This document shows positions 2,503-63,600 of a stretch of DNA of 64,000 bases, piece after piece (the stretch's first letter is position 1; each line of letters starts with the position of its first letter). Location of the stretch: assembly GCF_014725735.1 (NCBI RefSeq), contig NZ_CP061368.1, positions 511,225 through 575,224 of the forward strand, given 5' to 3'. A program made the translations under genes and the position numbers. The notes under the pieces are model-generated. The model did not search any database. It was not told the origin of the DNA and saw only the letters and a program-made list of their open reading frames with translations. The DNA is from Wenzhouxiangella sp. AB-CW3 (lineage in GTDB: Bacteria; Pseudomonadota; Gammaproteobacteria; Xanthomonadales; Wenzhouxiangellaceae).

Positions 2503-3513
2503 TCAGTTGTTTTCGATTTTGCGCAGGCGCCGCGCCCAGTCGTCGAGCTGACCGAGGCGCACGAGAATGCGCTTCCATTTTGAATGGGGGCGGGCCGGGA
2601 TGCCGGACCCGTACTCTCCCGGCTCATCAATCGAGTCGAGTACGGTGCTCATGGCGGTGACGATCACCTGATCGCAGATGCTCAGGTGGCCGCCAATGCC
2701 ACATGCTCCTGCAATCATGCAATGACGACCGATATGCGTGGATCCGGCAATGCCCGTGCAACCGGCAATGGCGGTATGCGCCCCGATGCGCACATTGTGC
2801 GCGATCTGGACCTGGTTATCCAGGCGGACATCCTCTTCCAGAACCGTGTCCTCGATGGCGCCCCGGTCTATGGTGGTGTTGGCGCCGATCTCGCAGTCGT
2901 CGCCAATGCGCACGCTGCCCATTTGCGGCACCTTCAGCCACCGGCCCTTGTCGAGTGCCAGCCCGAAGCCGTCGGCGCCAATGACGGCGCCGGGGTGGAC
3001 AATGACGCGTTCGCCCAGATTCACGTCCCGGCCCAGAAAGACGCGCCCGACCAGGCGCGAACCCGCACCCATCCTGACATTTTCCTCGAGCACGCAGCCC
3101 GGTCCGACAACCGCTCCCGGGCCGATGCTACAGCCCGGCCCGATACTGCATTGCGGACCGATGGTGGCATCGGTATGGATATCGGCCCCGGGGTCGATCC
3201 AGGCGCTGTCATGCACGCCGGCAGGCTCGCTGGGCCGTGTCGACATCAGCGTGGCAATCCGGGCCCAGGCGGCATAGGGGTTGGAGGTGATCAATGCGTT
3301 GCCCGTCCAGCGCTCCAGCATGGGTTCAGACAGGATCAGAACCCCGGCGCGGCAGTTGCCCAGTTCCCGGGCATAGGCTGCGTTGGCGAGAAATCCGACA
3401 TCATCCGGGCCGGCGGCCGACAGGGTGGCCAGCCCGCTGATCCGGTAGTCGGGGTCGCCGCGCAACGTCAGATCGAAACGCCGGGCCAGTTGTGCGATGG
3501 AGTAAGTGGGCAT
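2503..3513 (-). CDS. lpxD: UDP-3-O-acylglucosamine N-acyltransferase
   Basis: LpxD adds the second hydroxyacyl chain (N-acylation) in lipid A synthesis. The start chosen is ATG 3513 (MPTYSIAQLARRFDL), giving 336 residues, the usual length. The N-terminal uridine-binding domain is followed by hexapeptide repeats and the motif QIAHNVRIG, which holds the catalytic His. No Shine-Dalgarno sequence is visible before this ATG: only 13 bases separate it from the 232-bp inverted-repeat element at 3527-3758. That element splits lpxD from skp, genes that are normally close together, so translation and transcription of lpxD may be affected. Confidence 0.95.
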   Translation of the reverse strand: MPTYSIAQLARRFDLTLRGDPDYRISGLATLSAAGPDDVGFLANAAYARELGNCRAGVLILSEPMLERWTGNALITSNPYAAWARIATLMSTRPSEPAGVHDSAWIDPGADIHTDATIGPQCSIGPGCSIGPGAVVGPGCVLEENVRMGAGSRLVGRVFLGRDVNLGERVIVHPGAVIGADGFGLALDKGRWLKVPQMGSVRIGDDCEIGANTTIDRGAIEDTVLEEDVRLDNQVQIAHNVRIGAHTAIAGCTGIAGSTHIGRHCMIAGACGIGGHLSICDQVIVTAMSTVLDSIDEPGEYGSGIPARPHSKWKRILVRLGQLDDWARRLRKIENN

Positions 3514-3526
3514 GCAGCTGATCAGA

Positions 3527-3758
3527 CTAGTGGGCCATGCGGTTAATAAGGTAACACTCAGCCGTCGCACAAGTGCCGTGGGCAGGGCAGGCGAAACCGC
3601 ATGGCGACTTTCGCGTAGCGAATGAAGCCTTGCGAGTGGAGCCGCTGCACGTGTTCCGCTCGCTTGAATTGGCGACGGCCAGTCCTGCGCTCGCGCGCCT
3701 TGCCCACGACACTTGTGCGACGGCTGAGTGTTACCTCATTAACCGCATGGCCCACTAG
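3527..3758. repeat. 232-bp inverted-repeat (MITE-like) element
   Basis: Two arms of 62 bases (3527-3588 and 3697-3758) are reverse complements with only a few mismatches, around a 108-bp centre. Both outer ends read CTAG. If CTAG is a target duplication, the element's own ends start TGGGCCATGCGG. A YTAR-type 4-bp target is typical of IS5-group transposons, but no transposase is present. The right end supplies the skp stop codon (TAG), and the left end lies 13 bases before lpxD. Small open frames on both strands end in the same peptide because of the symmetry and are not genes. Confidence 0.8.
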
Positions 3759-4333
3759 GGGTCGCGCTGATTGTCGCCGGAACCGAAGTCGTCTTCCAGC
3801 CATTCGAGTACCTGCTTCGTGATGTCGACTGTGTCGGACGCGTAGGCGACCGGATTGCTCAGCACCAGGTCGTAGCCCTCTTCGCGGGCGATTTCGCGCA
3901 CCGCAACATCGATGGTTTCGCGCAAGGCCTCGGTCTTGGCGTTGGTCCGGAAACGGATCTCCTCGACCAGGTCCTCGCGCCGGCGCTCGATGGAGCGGCG
4001 CATGTTGTTGATTTCGCGTTCGCGCTGAACGCGCTGTTGCTCGTCCAGCGCCGGACTGTCGCTCAGCTCACGCTGCATGCGCTCGAGTTCGGCCTCGTCG
4101 CTGAGCAGCGCCTCGTTGCGTGGCCTGAACTCCCGGTCCAGCTCCTCGCGCGCGGCCACCAGGTGCGGCATGGTGTCGAACAGGCGTTTCATGTCGACAT
4201 AACCGATGCGCACACTGTCGGCCATGGCAGGCAGCCACAGCAAGCAGCACAGTACCAGCCCGGCCAGCAGCCGCACCGGCCGGTGGCCGGCGGCTGTGCT
4301 CTTCCGGTGCTGTTGCTGTCCGGGTCCGGTCAT
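3755..4333 (-). CDS. skp: Periplasmic chaperone Skp/OmpH
   Basis: Skp holds unfolded outer-membrane proteins in the periplasm for delivery to the BAM complex. The start at ATG 4333 (GAGG six bases upstream) gives 192 residues. An unusually long N-region of about 20 residues precedes the hydrophobic signal segment LLAGLVLCCLLWLPAMA. The mature part opens with SVRIGYVDM and then forms the long charged helical hairpin (many E, R and Q from about residue 60 to 140). It lies between bamA and lpxD, as in E. coli. The stop TAG falls in the terminal CTAG of the neighbouring inverted-repeat element, so the original C-terminus may have been changed. Confidence 0.92.
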   Translation of the reverse strand: MTGPGQQQHRKSTAAGHRPVRLLAGLVLCCLLWLPAMADSVRIGYVDMKRLFDTMPHLVAAREELDREFRPRNEALLSDEAELERMQRELSDSPALDEQQRVQREREINNMRRSIERRREDLVEEIRFRTNAKTEALRETIDVAVREIAREEGYDLVLSNPVAYASDTVDITKQVLEWLEDDFGSGDNQRDP

Positions 4334-4358
4334 GTCCAGCCTCTTTTTCGAGGGTGCT

Positions 4359-6797
4359 TCAGAACGTCCTGCCGAAGGCGAACTGCAGTACCTGGGTGTC
4401 GTCACCGTCACGTTGCTTCAGCGGCGTGGCCACGTTGATGATAATCGGACCGACCGGTGCTTGCCAGCTCAGGGACAAACCGGTCGAGGCACGCAAGCGG
4501 TCGGCGTCGAAATCGTCGAAATCACGATAGACGTTGCCGACATCGACGAACCAGGCCAGGCGAGTGCCGCCCGCATCGCCAAAGGGCAGCGGAAACGCCA
4601 GTTCGAGGCCGCCGGTCACCTTGAAGTCGCCGCCGACAGCCTGGCAGAACTCGTCCTTGGGACCAAGGGTGTTGTCATTGAAGCCACGAATGTCGCGCAC
4701 ACCGCCGCCGAAGAAGTGCTCGTAGAACGGCAGTCCGCGGTCGGAAGTCACGATCTCGTCTTCCTGACACTGGACGCGCGCGTTGGGGTGACGCTCCGGT
4801 TCGATTTCCTCGATGTCGAGGCGTTCATCCCAGTCGTCGTAGGCATCGCCATAGGCGACATCGCCGTGCAGGCTGAATGCCATCCGGTTGCCGATGGGCC
4901 AGTAACGGCGGAAGCGATAGTTGAGCTTGTAGAACTCCCGGGAACTACCCGGCAGGCTGACTTCAGCACCCAGCCGGTGCAGCGAACCGCGGGTGGGATT
5001 GAGAAAATGATTGCGACTGTCGCGCGACCATGTGCCGTCGAGACGGTACAGGGTCAGGCGGCGCTCGCTGCGTGACAGGAATCCGTCGCCGTCCTCGTCC
5101 AGGGTGATACCCAGGGGGCGGGTGGCCGGCATGCGCATCTCGAGCGGGCTGTCGGGGTCGTCGGGGTCGACCGGCACAAGCTGACGCGGCATGTTGATCT
5201 CCACCCGCGAAGCCGAAGCGCCGAGACGGAAAAAGTCGATCTCGGTGACCGGAAATCCGAAGTTCACCCCGCCGGCGGCCTGGCTGGTGTTGAATGCCGA
5301 GATATTGGCGCGACCCTGATCGAATTCGGTGTAGCGGGCGAAAAAGCCGCGTGAAACACCGTCGTCGGTGTAGTAGGGGTTGGTGTAGTTGACGCCGACC
5401 TGCGTCAGAATGCTGGAACGGCTCAGGTTGAGACCGACCTGGCGGCCGGTACCGAGAAAGTTGTTCTGCTCGATAGACATCGAGGCGATGACGCCCTGCA
5501 ACTGAGAGTACCCGAGTCCAATCTGGAAGCTTCCGGAAGGCACTTCCTCGACATTGACGATAATGTCGATCTCGTCATCACTGCCCTCGACCTTCGGGGT
5601 CTCGATGTTGACGTTGTCGAAGAAGCCCAGGCGCTGCAGGCGAATTCGCGACCGGTCCACTGCGCTTTGCGAGAACCATGCCCCTTCGAACTGGCGCATT
5701 TCCCGCCGCAGTACCTCGTCCTTGGTGTTGGTGTTGCCCCTAAACTCGATGCGCCGGACATATACGCGATGGCCGGGATCGATGTAGAAGTTGATCTCCG
5801 CTTCCCGCGACTCCCGGTCGATGGAAGGCACCGGGTTGACGTCGGCGAAGGCGTAACCGATGTTGGCCAGCACGGCGGTAATGTTGTCGATGCTCTGTTC
5901 GATCTTGCGGCGCGAGAAGGTTTCGCCGGCCTCCAGGGTGATCAGGCGGCGCAGCATTTCCTCGTCGAGCACCAGCTCGCCGGTGACCTGGATGTCGCTT
6001 ACGGTGTAGACCTCGCCCTCGCGAATATTGGCAGTGACGAAGATGTCCTGACGGTCCGGGCTGACCGAGACCTGGGTGGATTCAATCGAAAAGTCCATGT
6101 AGCCGCGGTCGAGATAGAACGATCGCAGCACTTCCATGTCGCCAGAGAGCTTCTCGCGGGTGTACTGGTTGCGTCCACGCCAGAACATCAGGCCACGCGT
6201 CGTGTGTGACTCGAAATCCTCGCGCAATTCACTTTCGCTGTAGGTTTCGTTGCCGACGATGTTGATGTGCCGGATCCTAGCCTGGCTGCCTTCGTGAATG
6301 TCGATCGACAGGCGCACCCGGTTGCGTTCAAGGCGCTCGGCGTTTGTTTCGACCCGCACGGCATAGTGGCCGCGGCTGAAATACTGTTGAATCAACTCGT
6401 GCCGAACACGCTCCAGCTCCATCTCGTTGAAGATCTCGCCCTCGGCAATGCCGATGCTGGCCAGGGCTGGCATCAGGTCGTCGTCGCTGATCTGGCGGTT
6501 GCCCTCGATCTGGATCCGGGTGATGGCGGGTCGCTCGGTGACGCTGATGACCAGCACTTCGCCATCGCGCTTCAGGCTGATGTCATCGAAAAAGCCGGTC
6601 CGGTACAGGTCGCGGATGGTGCTGCGCGACAGCGACGAGGTCAGTGTGTCGCCTACTTCGACAGGGATGAAGCTGAACACCGTGCCTTCGGAGATGCGTT
6701 GCAGTCCTTCGACGCGAATGTCGGAAATCTGAAAGTTCTCGCCGTGCGCGGCAGAGAAAACGGCGATCAGCAGTAGCAGGAGAAACAATCGTTTCAT
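4359..6797 (-). CDS. bamA: Outer membrane protein assembly factor BamA
   Basis: BamA is the essential Omp85 protein that folds and inserts outer-membrane beta barrels. From ATG 6797 the 812-residue product has a signal peptide (KRLFLLLLLIAVFSAAHG), five POTRA repeats over about residues 20-420, and a C-terminal 16-strand barrel ending in phenylalanine (FAFGRTF). The L6-loop signature appears as DIRGFNDNTLGP, with IRGF in place of the more usual VRGF/Y. The frame is open 15 codons further upstream, but the signal peptide fixes the start. It lies between rseP and skp. Confidence 0.97.
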   Translation of the reverse strand: MKRLFLLLLLIAVFSAAHGENFQISDIRVEGLQRISEGTVFSFIPVEVGDTLTSSLSRSTIRDLYRTGFFDDISLKRDGEVLVISVTERPAITRIQIEGNRQISDDDLMPALASIGIAEGEIFNEMELERVRHELIQQYFSRGHYAVRVETNAERLERNRVRLSIDIHEGSQARIRHINIVGNETYSESELREDFESHTTRGLMFWRGRNQYTREKLSGDMEVLRSFYLDRGYMDFSIESTQVSVSPDRQDIFVTANIREGEVYTVSDIQVTGELVLDEEMLRRLITLEAGETFSRRKIEQSIDNITAVLANIGYAFADVNPVPSIDRESREAEINFYIDPGHRVYVRRIEFRGNTNTKDEVLRREMRQFEGAWFSQSAVDRSRIRLQRLGFFDNVNIETPKVEGSDDEIDIIVNVEEVPSGSFQIGLGYSQLQGVIASMSIEQNNFLGTGRQVGLNLSRSSILTQVGVNYTNPYYTDDGVSRGFFARYTEFDQGRANISAFNTSQAAGGVNFGFPVTEIDFFRLGASASRVEINMPRQLVPVDPDDPDSPLEMRMPATRPLGITLDEDGDGFLSRSERRLTLYRLDGTWSRDSRNHFLNPTRGSLHRLGAEVSLPGSSREFYKLNYRFRRYWPIGNRMAFSLHGDVAYGDAYDDWDERLDIEEIEPERHPNARVQCQEDEIVTSDRGLPFYEHFFGGGVRDIRGFNDNTLGPKDEFCQAVGGDFKVTGGLELAFPLPFGDAGGTRLAWFVDVGNVYRDFDDFDADRLRASTGLSLSWQAPVGPIIINVATPLKQRDGDDTQVLQFAFGRTF

Positions 6798-6852
6798 AAA
6801 TGTAGGAAGTGCTTCTGGTTGGTATGACGGGCGGCTGGCCAAATGGCGCAGT

Positions 6853-8226
6853 TTAGGGGATCAGACGTAAGATGTCGTTAAATATCGCCAGACTCATCAG
6901 CGCGATGACCAGCATCAGGCCGATATACTGACCGGCTATCTGAGCTTGCTCGGATACCGGCGACCCCTTGATCAACTCCACAAGGTAATACATCAGGTGG
7001 CCGCCATCCAGCATGGGGATGGGCAGCAGGTTGATGATGGCCAGGGACAGGCTGATTAACCCCAGGAAAAACAGGAATCTGGAAAAGCCCAGCAGGGCCG
7101 AGGAGTGAGCCATCTGGGCGATGGTGATCGGGCCGGCCAGATTCGACAGGCTGGCGTTGCCGGTGATCATCCGTCCCAGGATTCCCAGCGTGGCCGTGGT
7201 CAGGCGCCAGGTTTCGCCGAAAGCCTCTCCCAGGGCGCTGGCCGGGTCGTGACGCAATATCGTGAAGGCCCGCTCCATCAGGGCCTGGGTCGCGGCATCC
7301 GGTTCGCCGGCCTGAATGCCGATCACCGGGCGCCCGCCGCTGATATCGGGCTGGATGCGGTGCTCGAGTCGAATGCCGTTGCGTTCGATGTCCACAGTCA
7401 TCTCGCGGGGCTGGCCGGATTCATCCACGCCGTGTTCGGGAATGAGTCGGGCAATGTCGCGCCACCCGGATACGCTGTCACCCCCGATGGCGACGATTCT
7501 GTCGCCGGCCCGAAGGCCGGCCTGCTCGGCCGGCGTGTCGGGCGCCACTTCGCCGATCAGCGGCGCGAGGTCGGGTTGCCACGGGGTAATGCCGATGTGA
7601 TCCAGCGCGCGCTCTTCCTCGAAATCCGCACCGAGCTGTCCCAGCTCCAGCATGACATCACGGTGCTGACCATCGGGTCGCTCAAGCGATAAGGGGGTCG
7701 GGCGACGATCCAGCGCTGGCGGGATCAGGCCGAGCAGAACGTGGGTCCAGGTCTCGGTCTTGCGGGTGCCGACCTGCTTGATCAGGTCGCCCTCTTCCAG
7801 GCCGGCTTCAGCGGCAATGCCGCTGGTCTGTCCAACCACCGGCCGTGTCTCCGGAATGCCGACGACAAACATCAGCCAGAAAGCGGCGAGGGCAAATATG
7901 AGGTTGAACACCGGACCCGCCGCGACGATGGCGGTACGCTGACCGAGAGATTGCCGGTTGAAGGCCCGATGGCGCTCGTGTTCCGGCACCGGCCCCTCGC
8001 GCTCGTCAAGCATTTTGACGTACCCACCCAGGGGAATGGCGGCAATACGATACTCGGTGCCGCTGCCGGCGGTGCGCGACCACAGCGCCGGGCCAAAGCC
8101 GACCGAAAAGCGCAGTACGCGCACACCGCAGCGCCGGGCCACCCAGAAGTGGCCGAATTCATGGAAGGTGATCAGGATGCCAAGGGCGACCACCAGCCAC
8201 AGAATGGGTCCGAGAATGTCCATCAT
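6853..8226 (-). CDS. rseP: Site-2 zinc metalloprotease RseP
   Basis: RseP is the inner-membrane protease that cleaves anti-sigma-E and leftover signal peptides. The 457 residues show the zinc-binding HEFGH at 22-26 in the first membrane helix, two PDZ domains in the periplasmic middle (about 115-300), and the third zinc-ligand motif IPMLDGGH near 403-410. Two ATG codons are tandem at the start. AGGAG lies rather far (14 bases) upstream of the first. In most gammaproteobacteria dxr separates cdsA from rseP. Here only about 100 bases without a gene (8227-8330) separate them. Confidence 0.96.
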   Translation of the reverse strand: MMDILGPILWLVVALGILITFHEFGHFWVARRCGVRVLRFSVGFGPALWSRTAGSGTEYRIAAIPLGGYVKMLDEREGPVPEHERHRAFNRQSLGQRTAIVAAGPVFNLIFALAAFWLMFVVGIPETRPVVGQTSGIAAEAGLEEGDLIKQVGTRKTETWTHVLLGLIPPALDRRPTPLSLERPDGQHRDVMLELGQLGADFEEERALDHIGITPWQPDLAPLIGEVAPDTPAEQAGLRAGDRIVAIGGDSVSGWRDIARLIPEHGVDESGQPREMTVDIERNGIRLEHRIQPDISGGRPVIGIQAGEPDAATQALMERAFTILRHDPASALGEAFGETWRLTTATLGILGRMITGNASLSNLAGPITIAQMAHSSALLGFSRFLFFLGLISLSLAIINLLPIPMLDGGHLMYYLVELIKGSPVSEQAQIAGQYIGLMLVIALMSLAIFNDILRLIP

Positions 8227-13202: not shown

Positions 13203-13396
13203 GGTAATGCTCCTTTTTCCAGGGACGCAGCGCCACCCCGTCGAATACGGGTGGAATCGGAGAAGCGCATTGTCCGGGGTTTTGGCCTCCGCTGATCCCA
13301 TGCGACCATCCGCAACCCCAAGGCCCGGACAACCCCGCCGCATGTGCCGACCAGCGTGTGTTTTTGGTTTGCCACGCCAAGGTTGGCGGGCAAATC
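13203..13396 (-). promoter_or_regulatory. rpsB 5' leader, possible autoregulatory RNA
   Basis: About 190 transcribed bases precede rpsB if the promoter at 13403-13432 is correct. A stem can form between TTGTCCGGG-like sequence at 13270-13278 and its complement at 13324-13332. Gammaproteobacterial rpsB-tsf operons are known to be repressed by S2 through their leader RNA. I infer, but cannot show, that this leader does the same. No open frame is visible here. Confidence 0.35.
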
Positions 13397-46976: not shown

Positions 46977-46989
46977 GGAGAGGCAAGGG

Positions 46990-47200
46990 TGAAGTGTGAA
47001 GTGTGAAGTGTGAAGTGTGAAGTGTGAAGTGTGAAGTGTGAAGTGTGAGGGGCTTGCGGCTGGGTATTTTGGAGGAATGAGCTTTGTGTGGCTTCGGTTG
47101 GGGAAGGGTGTTAGGTGTTAGGTGTTAGGTCGAAGCCGCAGCCAATCAGATCACTTACACTGCATGCCGCAAGCCGTTCTTAACACTTCACACTTAACAC
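46990..47200. repeat. Heptanucleotide fold-back repeat, copy B
   Basis: Eight perfect copies of TGAAGTG (46990-47045) are followed by GGGGCTTGCGGC and three TTAGGTG-type heptads (47111-47131). The inverted part then follows: CCGCAAGCC (47168-47176) and CTTAACACTTCACACTTAAC (47179-47198). The inner GGCTTGCGG/CCGCAAGCC pair and the outer heptads can fold together. It lies between the convergent amylase and lacI genes; the last base touches the lacI stop. Same family as 13458-13655. Confidence 0.85.
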
Positions 47201-48234
47201 TATCCTCCCCCCGTCGACCCCCGCACGATCAGCTCCCCGGGAATCGTGCTGCATTCGATCTTTTCGCCGGCGATAAGCCTGAGCAGGTTTTCGACCAGAG
47301 CCTGGCCGGCGGCAATGGTGTCCTGGCGCAGCGTGGTCAGGGCCGGGCGGCAGTACTGGGCCATGGGAATGTCGTCGAAACCGGCCACGGCCACGTCGCC
47401 GGGCACATCCAGCCCGGCGTTGAATACTGCCTGCATTGCGCCGATGGCGATCAGATCGCTGGCACCGAATACAGCATCGAGTTCCACATCACGATCGAGC
47501 AACTCCTGCGTGGCTTCGAGGCCGGAGCGCTCGGTGGTGATGGCGTCAACCTGCAGTTCGGGGTCGACTTTCAGTCCCGCGGCTTCCAGCGCCTTGCGGT
47601 AGCCGCGGTAGCGGTCGTTGAACTCGGGGTAGTGACTGGAAGCCTCGCCGATGAACGCGATGCGCTTGCAGCCTTGTTCGATCAGGTGCCGGGTGACGGC
47701 TTCGCCGCCGCCGATGTTGTCAGATCCGATCGCCAGCCCCGGCTGGTCCGGGCGGGTCGCACCCCAGCGCACGAAATGCGCACCACCGGCGGTGAGGCGT
47801 TCCAGCTTGGCGCGGTATTCCAGGTAATCGCCGTAGCCGAGCAGAATCAGGCCGTCGGCCTTGTGCGTGTTTTCGTAGTCGGCCTGCCAATCGTCGGAAA
47901 GTTGCTGGAAGGAGACCAGCAGGTCCTGGTCGGCAGCAGCGGCCGCGCGCGTGATCGAGGCCAGGATGGACAGGAAGAAGGGGTTGATCAGCGAGTGGTC
48001 GTCGGTGGGGTCCTCGAACAGCAACAGCGCCAGAGTATTGGAGCGCTGGGTGCGCAGGTTGGAGGCGCTCTTGTCGACCTTGTAATTGAGCTCTCGGGCG
48101 ATGGCCTCGATACGCTCGCGGGTCTCCTTATTGACCAGTGGAGAGCCGCGCAGGGCCCGGGATACGGTGGCCTGTGACACGCCCGCGCGCATGGCGATAT
48201 CCAGGGAGTTGGGCTTTCCCTTTATCGGCGACAC
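47200..48234 (-). CDS. LacI-family transcriptional regulator of the alpha-glucan/ED regulon (predicted)
   Basis: The 344-residue protein has the LacI helix-turn-helix (SLDIAMRAGVSQATVSRALRG, residues 10-30) and the hinge region (IEAIARELNYKVDKSASNLR). The periplasmic-binding-protein-like sensor core follows, ending in VPGDVAVAGFDDIPMAQYC. GTG 48234 is the only reasonable start; no strong ribosome site is seen. It is the last gene of the zwf-pgl-edd-glk-eda unit, 71 bases after eda. CG-centred palindromes of LacI type occur before zwf, the transporter and the alpha-glucosidase/receptor pair, so this protein is the best candidate repressor, with a sugar such as maltose or glucose as inducer. 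Confidence 0.93.
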   Translation of the reverse strand: MSPIKGKPNSLDIAMRAGVSQATVSRALRGSPLVNKETRERIEAIARELNYKVDKSASNLRTQRSNTLALLLFEDPTDDHSLINPFFLSILASITRAAAAADQDLLVSFQQLSDDWQADYENTHKADGLILLGYGDYLEYRAKLERLTAGGAHFVRWGATRPDQPGLAIGSDNIGGGEAVTRHLIEQGCKRIAFIGEASSHYPEFNDRYRGYRKALEAAGLKVDPELQVDAITTERSGLEATQELLDRDVELDAVFGASDLIAIGAMQAVFNAGLDVPGDVAVAGFDDIPMAQYCRPALTTLRQDTIAAGQALVENLLRLIAGEKIECSTIPGELIVRGSTGGG

Positions 48235-63324: not shown

Positions 63325-63383
63325 GCGGGCTTCGGGTGGCTGGTCGGTGATCGGAGACGCATGCGGCTGCGACTTTTGCTGGT

Positions 63384-63600
63384 GAGTTGCAAGTTGTCAG
63401 TTGTAGGTTGCAAGTCGGCGCCTGAAAGCGGTGCGGGCCAGGTTCCGCACTGCCAACCCATGGCCAGCAACCCAGAAATCGGAAACCAAACATCCGAAGT
63501 CGACTTACAACTTACAACCGACAACTTGCAACTCCTAGCTGACAACTTGCAACTAATCATCACTGGCTTGCAACTGGCAACATGCAACCACGCCGCTCGG
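63384..63600. repeat. Heptad fold-back repeat between pepA and holC
   Basis: A 34-base arm (63384-63417, units AGTTGCA, AGTTGTC, AGTTGTA, GGTTGCA) is the reverse complement of 63501-63534 with three mismatches. Further units (ACAACTTGCAAC, GGCTTGCAACTGGCAAC) continue to about 63590. It fills most of the 278-bp gap between pepA and holC; no gene is visible there. Confidence 0.78.

Follow-up and report, generated by a model that had tools for sequence, protein, structure and literature searches.

The window analysed here, the whole 64,000-nucleotide stretch at positions 511225-575224 of the single 3,844,697-base contig of Wenzhouxiangella sp. AB-CW3, contains a 232-bp inverted-repeat element (3527-3758) between the skp gene (3755-4411, minus strand) and the lpxD gene (2503-3513, minus strand). 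Family models supported lpxD and its neighbours bamA, fabZ, lpxA and lpxB; the skp product matched OmpH (PF03938) above the cut-off and scored 56 bits with the NCBIfam Skp model, below its cut-off of 237. The arms of the inverted repeat (3527-3594 and 3691-3758) are 68 nt each, 93% complementary and 96 nt apart, and CTAG is present at both ends of the element (3527-3530 and 3755-3758), so the long near-perfect arms and CTAG ends of the original prediction were found as described, with exact coordinates. The RNA fold of the minus strand reached -173.1 kcal/mol, as compared with -87.3 ± 4.5 kcal/mol for 200 shuffled sequences (z -19), and the DNA fold gave a z of -17. At the inverted-repeat search settings used, this is the longest inverted repeat in the window. 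Two others (63377-63562 and 46977-47210) are built from short tandem units, beginning AGTGTGA and CAAGTTGTCAG, respectively.

LpxD was found in 29 of the 30 genus genomes, the own genome included, and Skp and LpxD were both alignable in the window locus and in 27 relatives (a further locus, L124, was cut). The distance from the last aligned Skp residue to the first aligned LpxD residue was 11-61 nt in all 27 relatives, in contrast to 241 nt in the window. The 15-nt end of the element was absent from the skp-lpxD loci fetched for these 27 readable relatives, which are other species, with 56-77% LpxD identity, and not near-isogenic strains. A conserved part of the operon, or a terminator, would be the reading opposed to insertion; the position between two operon genes fits it, but the lack of the element at this place in 27 of 27 readable relatives refutes a conserved part, the dispersed copies elsewhere in the own genome (see below) also speak against it, and no T-run terminator was found between 3400 and 3900. 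We give this reading practically no chance. The original prediction of a MITE-like insertion between skp and lpxD is upheld by the dispersed copies and by the empty sites, which were seen in every readable congener.

The window Skp ends in GDNQRDP followed by TAG, and that of a close relative (L099) in SSDNQRDP followed by TGA, about 14 nt before lpxD. When the insert is removed on paper, a CTAG is kept whose TAG again forms the stop, 13 nt ahead of the lpxD ATG; therefore the element entered a stop-bearing CTAG and restored it, and the sequence and stop of Skp are unaltered by the insertion. It had been proposed that the element supplies the skp stop codon. The TAG at 3755-3757 does lie in the terminal CTAG, but this is no accident, CTAG being the target and the same TAG having been re-created by the insertion. 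CTAG is scarce in this DNA: base composition would predict 220 occurrences in the window, and there are 20, two of which belong to the element.

A DNA search of the own genome with the element yielded 55 matching stretches. The terminal 15-mer occurred exactly at 27 places, whereas a reversed control pattern had no exact occurrence; at two mismatches or fewer there were 46 places versus 16 for the control. The further copies that had been anticipated were thus found: 14 two-ended copies, at genome positions 48410, 338277, 466405, 514751 (the window copy), 645216, 1203035, 1855157, 2509916, 2561175, 2584025, 2888185, 3344698, 3475433 and 3616329, and three lone ends, at 1689683, 1922378 and 2828956. 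The copies vary in length because they are modular. Three of them (the window copy, 338277 and 3344698) have 232 bp and one hairpin; 2561175, 3616329 and 1855157 have about 335 bp and two hairpins, and 2509916 has 331 bp; copy 645216 (404 bp) has an extra hairpin within the loop; and the larger compounds 466405, 1203035 and 2584025 contain another palindromic element plus IS genes nested inside. A pair of matches 2.16 kb apart (2826794/2828956) was rejected as an autonomous copy: no transposase could be seen, and the match on the left is within a long ORF, presumably a GGDEF/EAL-type gene. Of 61 relatives (own genome counted), 28 match the 232 bp to some extent, and the exact 15-nt end is present in 18 of the 30 genus genomes, compared with a single match of the reversed control in the same 30. 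Two complete elements, when searched against plasmids, gave no match.

The complete element consists of two hairpins on opposite strands between 35-nt ends, joined by a CCCTTCGGG-like linker. Both hairpins and this linker are present in the own copies of about 335 bp and in congeners' copies of about 270 bp; the latter form was read in genomes G027, G003 and G026, and three G018 copies have equal end spacing. At the other extreme, bare end-to-end palindromes of 31-38 bp were seen (L080, L093 and L094). The 232-bp window element, which as a whole is assigned to neither strand, is the single-hairpin variant of this two-hairpin family. It has the left terminal inverted repeat CTAGTGGGCCATGCGGTTAATAAGGTAACACTCAG (35 nt, 3527-3561, plus strand), the right one (3724-3758, minus strand), whose CTAG holds the skp stop codon, and the 22-nt left and right arms of hairpin B (3562-3583 and 3702-3723, both given on the plus strand), with the 22-nt spacing of the two-hairpin family, and it is without hairpin C and the CCCTTCGGG-like linker. 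The loop of hairpin B is larger than in the short B of the congeners. An altered copy of the conserved hairpin core, with this enlarged loop, was recognised at 3641-3710 on the minus strand (genome positions 514865-514934; 45.7 bits, E 2.6e-7 in the own genome with the covariance model R1 described below). The window copy is therefore described here as a derivative of the two-hairpin element, and through its ends it is perhaps still mobile. Short, non-coding, bounded by terminal inverted repeats and dispersed in many copies, the 232-bp palindrome is a mobile element without a transposase, that is, a real MITE.

Several of the compound copies have a content of their own. One in L034 (4027-8649) includes nested hairpins and a transposase gene interrupted by a second IS, at a TTAA in the right stem of the element; we take this insert to be an IS701-like transposase broken by IS21-like istA/istB. 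In L033 (3120-3690) a transposase gene, presumably IS200-like, is nested beside a hairpin in a 1.1-kb copy.

The outer-end pattern TAGTGGGCCATGCGGYTAAT was scanned over a named genome collection and found in 101 stretches, all of which were submitted to a paired-end scan. Facing end pairs with two mismatches or fewer at IS length (1145-1148 bp) were present in only three of the 101, from Microbulbifer litoralis (L156), Haliea sp. E1-2-M8 (L167) and a Thiogranum MAG (L146). Each of these autonomous elements carries a 357-aa transposase gene with DDE_3 and HTH domains, and the Haliea protein scored 278 bits with the NCBIfam IS630 model (cut-off 100). Their six ends are identical to the left end of the window element at 24-28 of 30 positions, i.e. 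the outer ~30 nt of the MITE are ends of IS630-like elements. Among 14 contig-cut stretches looked at by eye, the same transposase C-terminus, of AKPFKWTKSAEKIIASV-RAKNALPN type, was found inside those of the Solemya velesiana symbiont (L125, L155 and L159), Reinekea (L165 and L202) and Microbulbifer (L186). No relative of the same-ended 357-aa transposase was detected in the own genome, which has one unrelated IS630-like gene only, and a relative (49% identical) was present in one of 43 family genomes. Thus, the MITE outlived its enzyme in the own genome or came without it. The unrelated gene (L226, the only DDE_3 gene of the own genome) was discarded as partner: it has other ends, and an automatic end finder found none for it. 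The IS701-like/IS21-like DNA in copy 2584025 was likewise rejected, having its own different ends and TTAA flanks. In L290 a DDE_3 fragment lies near a TAGTACTC end that points away from it.

Insertion of IS630-family elements at TA, and an IS630 preference for CTAG, are in print in the portions of the sources consulted. In palindromic CTAG ends, duplications of TA and of CTAG are indistinguishable. CTAA is found at the right end of one copy and CTAT at the left end of another, with TA flanking both element ends, and these variants favour TA over a 4-bp duplication. From all this we infer that the element transposed, that TA and not CTAG was duplicated, and which type of transposase acted: at some past time an IS630-family transposase would have acted in trans on the ~30-nt ends and set the element into the TA of the CTAG holding the skp stop; TA would have been duplicated, which accounts for the CTAG at either end and for the unchanged sequence and stop of Skp. 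Our main reading, that the 232 bp are a non-autonomous MITE of IS630 (Tc1/mariner-like) type placed in this manner into the skp-stop CTAG, with the two-hairpin body as the lasting unit of the family, has in our estimate a probability of about 85%.

The original prediction had pointed to the IS5 group. On that reading, or with an IS701-type partner, CTAG would be a duplicated 4-bp YTAR target. CTAG fits the YTAR rule, and a transposase gene that we take to be of IS701 type lies at TTAA in one copy of the family. A MITE of Pseudomonas syringae, MITEPsy1, duplicates CTAG or YTAA according to the part of PMC3189936 consulted. Against this, the same ends are carried by three elements with IS630-family transposases (found, it should be said, by their end pattern), the CTAA and CTAT ends, in one copy each, are explained more simply by TA, and the IS701-like insertion has different ends of its own. 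An IS5-group origin was not supported, and we consider it very improbable.

The terminal CTAG provides the stop of a Pfam-domain gene in six of the 14 two-ended copies: skp and the genes of an RRM protein, HPPK, an FAA hydrolase, a DnaE-type polymerase (a VTT protein being encoded on the opposite side) and a beta-lactamase-fold protein. If any ORF of 100 codons or more is counted, eight of the 14 copies have one ending at the CTAG, compared with two of 17 control CTAGs elsewhere in the window (Fisher one-sided 0.010); CTAGs in the element itself or less than 2.5 kb from a window edge did not serve as controls. Two of the eight ORFs (copies 2509916 and 3344698) matched no Pfam family, and with Pfam-supported copies only the comparison becomes six of 14 versus two of 17 (Fisher 0.06), the control ORFs having no Pfam filter. 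The excess of gene stops at element CTAGs is therefore suggestive only. Nor is the phenomenon new, since GTAG ends of REPs have been reported to provide TAG stops for flanking ORFs often (PMC3733652, in the part consulted).

The insertion replaced a skp-lpxD distance of about 14 nt with a 232-nt hairpin that extends from the skp stop to 13 nt before the lpxD start. It had been suggested that lpxD was thereby left without a visible ribosome-binding site. No Shine-Dalgarno-like sequence was indeed seen by eye in the 13-nt leader (3514-3526, minus strand) between the element and the ATG. However, among the 11 relatives in which a start codon occupies the homologous position, only two have GGAG, GAGG or AGGA at -16 to -4; such a lack is usual in the genus (nine of these 11), and therefore the insertion cannot be held responsible for it. 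The interval 3400-3900 yielded no promoter-like or terminator-like site. According to the fold, the mRNA would contain a very stable hairpin between the skp stop and the lpxD start, and its processing by an RNase III-type enzyme is a reasonable guess. An altered dosage of LpxD through the element is possible; the likeliest effect, in our judgement, would be a weaker translational coupling from skp to lpxD, together with a stabler or cleavable mRNA joint, and not a loss of LpxD. The locus offers a clean example of an insertion into an essential-gene operon that does no harm because a stop codon is its target. Within the element, a frame that starts with a GTG at 3570 runs through the terminal repeat into lpxD (2503-3570, minus strand), with a possible N-terminal extension of 19 residues.

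The hairpin modules of several element families in the genus fold alike (module B less cleanly), in this order: arm, C-AAG-GCG, 6-bp stem, GCM, apical hairpin, AA, the other side of the 6-bp stem, nAA-CGC, M-G and arm. In a set of nine sequences (MAFFT alignment A2 with a hand-written structure), 86.7% of the cells were paired, versus 63.0% after shuffling and 30.8-43.9% when the structure was slid, and both-side changes occurred in 18 of 25 pairs versus 11.6 in shuffled sets. In alignment A4, fitted to model R1, 89.5% of the cells were paired in 68 aligned hits (67 distinct rows) versus 64.9% after shuffling, and the 67 distinct rows had both-side changes in 22 of 25 pairs versus 18.0; the cores are related by descent, so these covariation figures and the strand-bias figures below overstate independence and a nominal p-value is not meaningful. 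Alignment A3 was dropped because of one misplaced row. Almost no variation was seen in the AAG and nAA bulges. The flanks could be lined up in 66 of the 68 hits (two without AAGG were dropped), and in these 66 TTCAG or a close variant precedes AAGG at -27 to -23 (each base 66-86%), followed by the 22-nt arm, with a CCC..GGG linker 3' of the 3' arm. In 22 of the 28 class-search loci (L258-L285) the core is accompanied by another one close by, on the other strand; several of the remaining six are cut by contig ends.

Mismatches were classified in 91 distinct cores, chosen only by Watson-Crick pairing. The 6-bp stem had 22 G.T, no A.C and 28 other mismatches, and the arms 138 G.T, 26 A.C and 144 others, which gives 160 G.T versus 26 A.C in total. 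In alignment A4 three helices had the G.T bias, and in the 3-bp GCG helix (helix 2) it was reversed (3 G.T, 10 A.C). Duplex DNA should prefer neither; an excess of G.T over A.C would be expected if the AAGG strand pairs with itself, in the form of RNA or of single-stranded DNA, and on these sequence comparisons the body appears to be conserved as a base-paired single strand.

This bias and the covariation would also fit a functional structured RNA for whose sake the element is kept, and several copies adjoin gene ends. A transcript from either strand, however, would hold only one correct core, since the cores lie on opposite strands, which argues mildly for DNA; moreover, the modular rearrangements and degraded copies look selfish, the 3400-3900 interval of the window gave no promoter-like or terminator-like site, and no Rfam family was recognised. 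In Rfam 15 no family reached its gathering score on the window element or on the elements of 14 related loci, and a search of one element at E ≤ 1 returned two microRNA matches far below threshold; elsewhere Rfam matched t44 in the window (13280-13378, minus strand) and tRNAs in two loci. A functional RNA is in our opinion unlikely. R1 provides annotators with a model for an abundant repeat family unmatched by Rfam 15.

The opposite orientation of two imperfect hairpins in those 22 of 28 loci recalls REPINs, with a single strand read by a tyrosine (RAYT/IS200-like) nuclease and DDE-type ends of secondary importance. The G.T bias and the kept bulges agree with this, as do GTAG in some apical hairpins (e.g. 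L199, L246 and L251), the presumably IS200-like gene inside one compound copy and three loci (L268, L273 and L305) where no TA/CTAG end was seen by eye. Most loci read nevertheless have TA/CTAG-ended inverted repeats, and by eye no constant GTAG/CGTC tag stands by the hairpins in the 66 lined-up cores with flanks, unlike the REPs described in the consulted part of PMC3733652. We regard this alternative as improbable.

The spread of the core was assessed with R1, which was built from the core and whose E-values are rough. The own genome had 51 matches at E ≤ 0.1 and 46 at 1e-5; the window core reached 45.7 bits only. Of the 30 genus genomes 25 had matches, the most (75) in G027. Even sampling of the class gave 77 of 274 genomes (63 of 222 genera) and a sample of the phylum 60 of 398 genomes (37 of 213 genera), samples that overlap, include the own genome and were run with stricter filters and with no more than 18 or 12 candidates scored in each genome, their copy numbers being at least the values obtained. 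Of the 60 matched genomes of the phylum sample, 28 are outside the class, and 27 of these belong to one family (f208).

The end types around the core differ widely (CTAGTGGGCCATGCGG, CTAGTACTCTTTCAAGG, CTAGTGTCCTGTC, CTAGTGTACTGCGTCACTC, TTATTAACCCGGC and others). One core-bearing end type is common with IS630-like elements and two further types resemble IS630-like ends. The family at 3627556 of the own genome is identical at 25 of 32 positions to the end of L227, an IS630-like element in G034 whose right end agrees with its left at only 19 of 26, so that L227 is a probable but not certain IS630-like counterpart of these ends; the end of the L301 element agrees with that of the unrelated IS630-like gene of the own genome (L226) at 24 of 30. 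Conversely, the first end type occurs without a core in L204 (125 bp) and L136 (R1 was run on 80 of the 101 stretches with the outer-end pattern), which indicates that the body is not needed for a MITE with such ends, and the stretches of up to 8 kb read around the three autonomous elements showed no core. No DDE_3 match was obtained in five of nine core-rich genomes, where another mobiliser is therefore possible. Judging from the different end types, the structured body appears to change its ends by swapping; as it recurs, conserved, behind very different ends, we take the body, and not the ends, as the lasting unit.

More tentatively, and with less than even odds in our judgement, the two-hairpin body may be an independent selfish unit. 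A factor conserved in Proteobacteria would read it as a single strand, whether at the replication fork, in the course of transposition or in RNA form, and the body would raise transposition or copy retention, its lineages repeatedly trading terminal repeats to ride the available IS630-type transposase and settling in harmless CTAG stops.

Bacterial MITEs are usually viewed as what deletion has left of a single IS, the middle being of no significance. Here, in contrast, the middle is conserved (in 63 of 222 sampled class genera), with compensatory changes and a G.T-over-A.C bias, and the ends differ. The window MITE is ordinary in placement and unusual in content, and its interest rests on the conserved body; whether interior structure drives the success of a MITE, and which protein reads it, becomes a testable question.

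Known repeats were compared through the parts of their descriptions that were consulted. RUP of Streptococcus pneumoniae, a proposed MITE of IS630-Spn1, is likewise small, with IS630-type ends, a TA target and proposed mobilisation in trans, but it has 107 bp and no comparable two-hairpin body in the part of PMC2229807 consulted. MITEPsy1 also inserts at CTAG/YTAA, but has 100 bp and different ends and is attributed to ISPsy2 (PMC3189936). The CIR repeats of Caulobacter and relatives share two inverted-repeat arms with a linker and a conserved secondary structure, whereas they have ~110 bp with GANTC sites (PMC2229807); they are set apart by description only. REP/BIME/REPIN units are opposed imperfect palindromes too (PMC3733652), yet of 20-40 bp with a GTAG or CGTC tag, in contrast to the mostly long TA/CTAG-ended inverted repeats and the ~52-nt core of the window family. 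The Chunjie MITE of Geobacter uraniireducens (235 bp, variable in length, one copy in an operon; PMC10969869) has no known sequence or body in common with it, a comparison made by description only. The R200 (320 bp) and R26 (352 bp) repeats of Pseudomonas fluorescens are dispersed, intergenic and of similar length (PMC2718517) and, judged by description and not by sequence, are possible members of the two-hairpin family. QMITE1 and QMITE2 of Coxiella burnetii are also long palindromic MITEs, predicted to fold very stably and in some cases overlapping the ends of genes, but QMITE1 is said to lack orthologues in other genomes (PMC5896051) and is set apart by description only. The two-hairpin body is absent from the descriptions in the consulted portions of PMC3189936, PMC2170065, PMC10969869, PMC4853749, PMC3733652, PMC6382973, PMC2718517, PMC5896051 and PMC2229807. 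As no description of it was recognised in the literature examined, with subscription papers and bioRxiv preprints largely outside, the inner hairpin is apparently an undescribed family of structured DNA.

The own genome also contains a second family of two-hairpin MITEs (L229, L232-L235, L237 and L248), with TATTAACCCGGCACGAATG ends and hairpins with the same core, which also nests inside the window-type family. A second type of structured insert recurs in core loops (L064 near 1332, L036, which holds copy 645216, and the loop of hairpin B in the window), with similar GAAGC and GGAGTG(GAG)CCG motifs by eye. Finally, an element of L194, from Thioalkalivibrio sp. ALMg11 (6619-6886), has two hairpins and is very like the Wenzhouxiangella ones; its occurrence in another genus points to a probable horizontal transfer.
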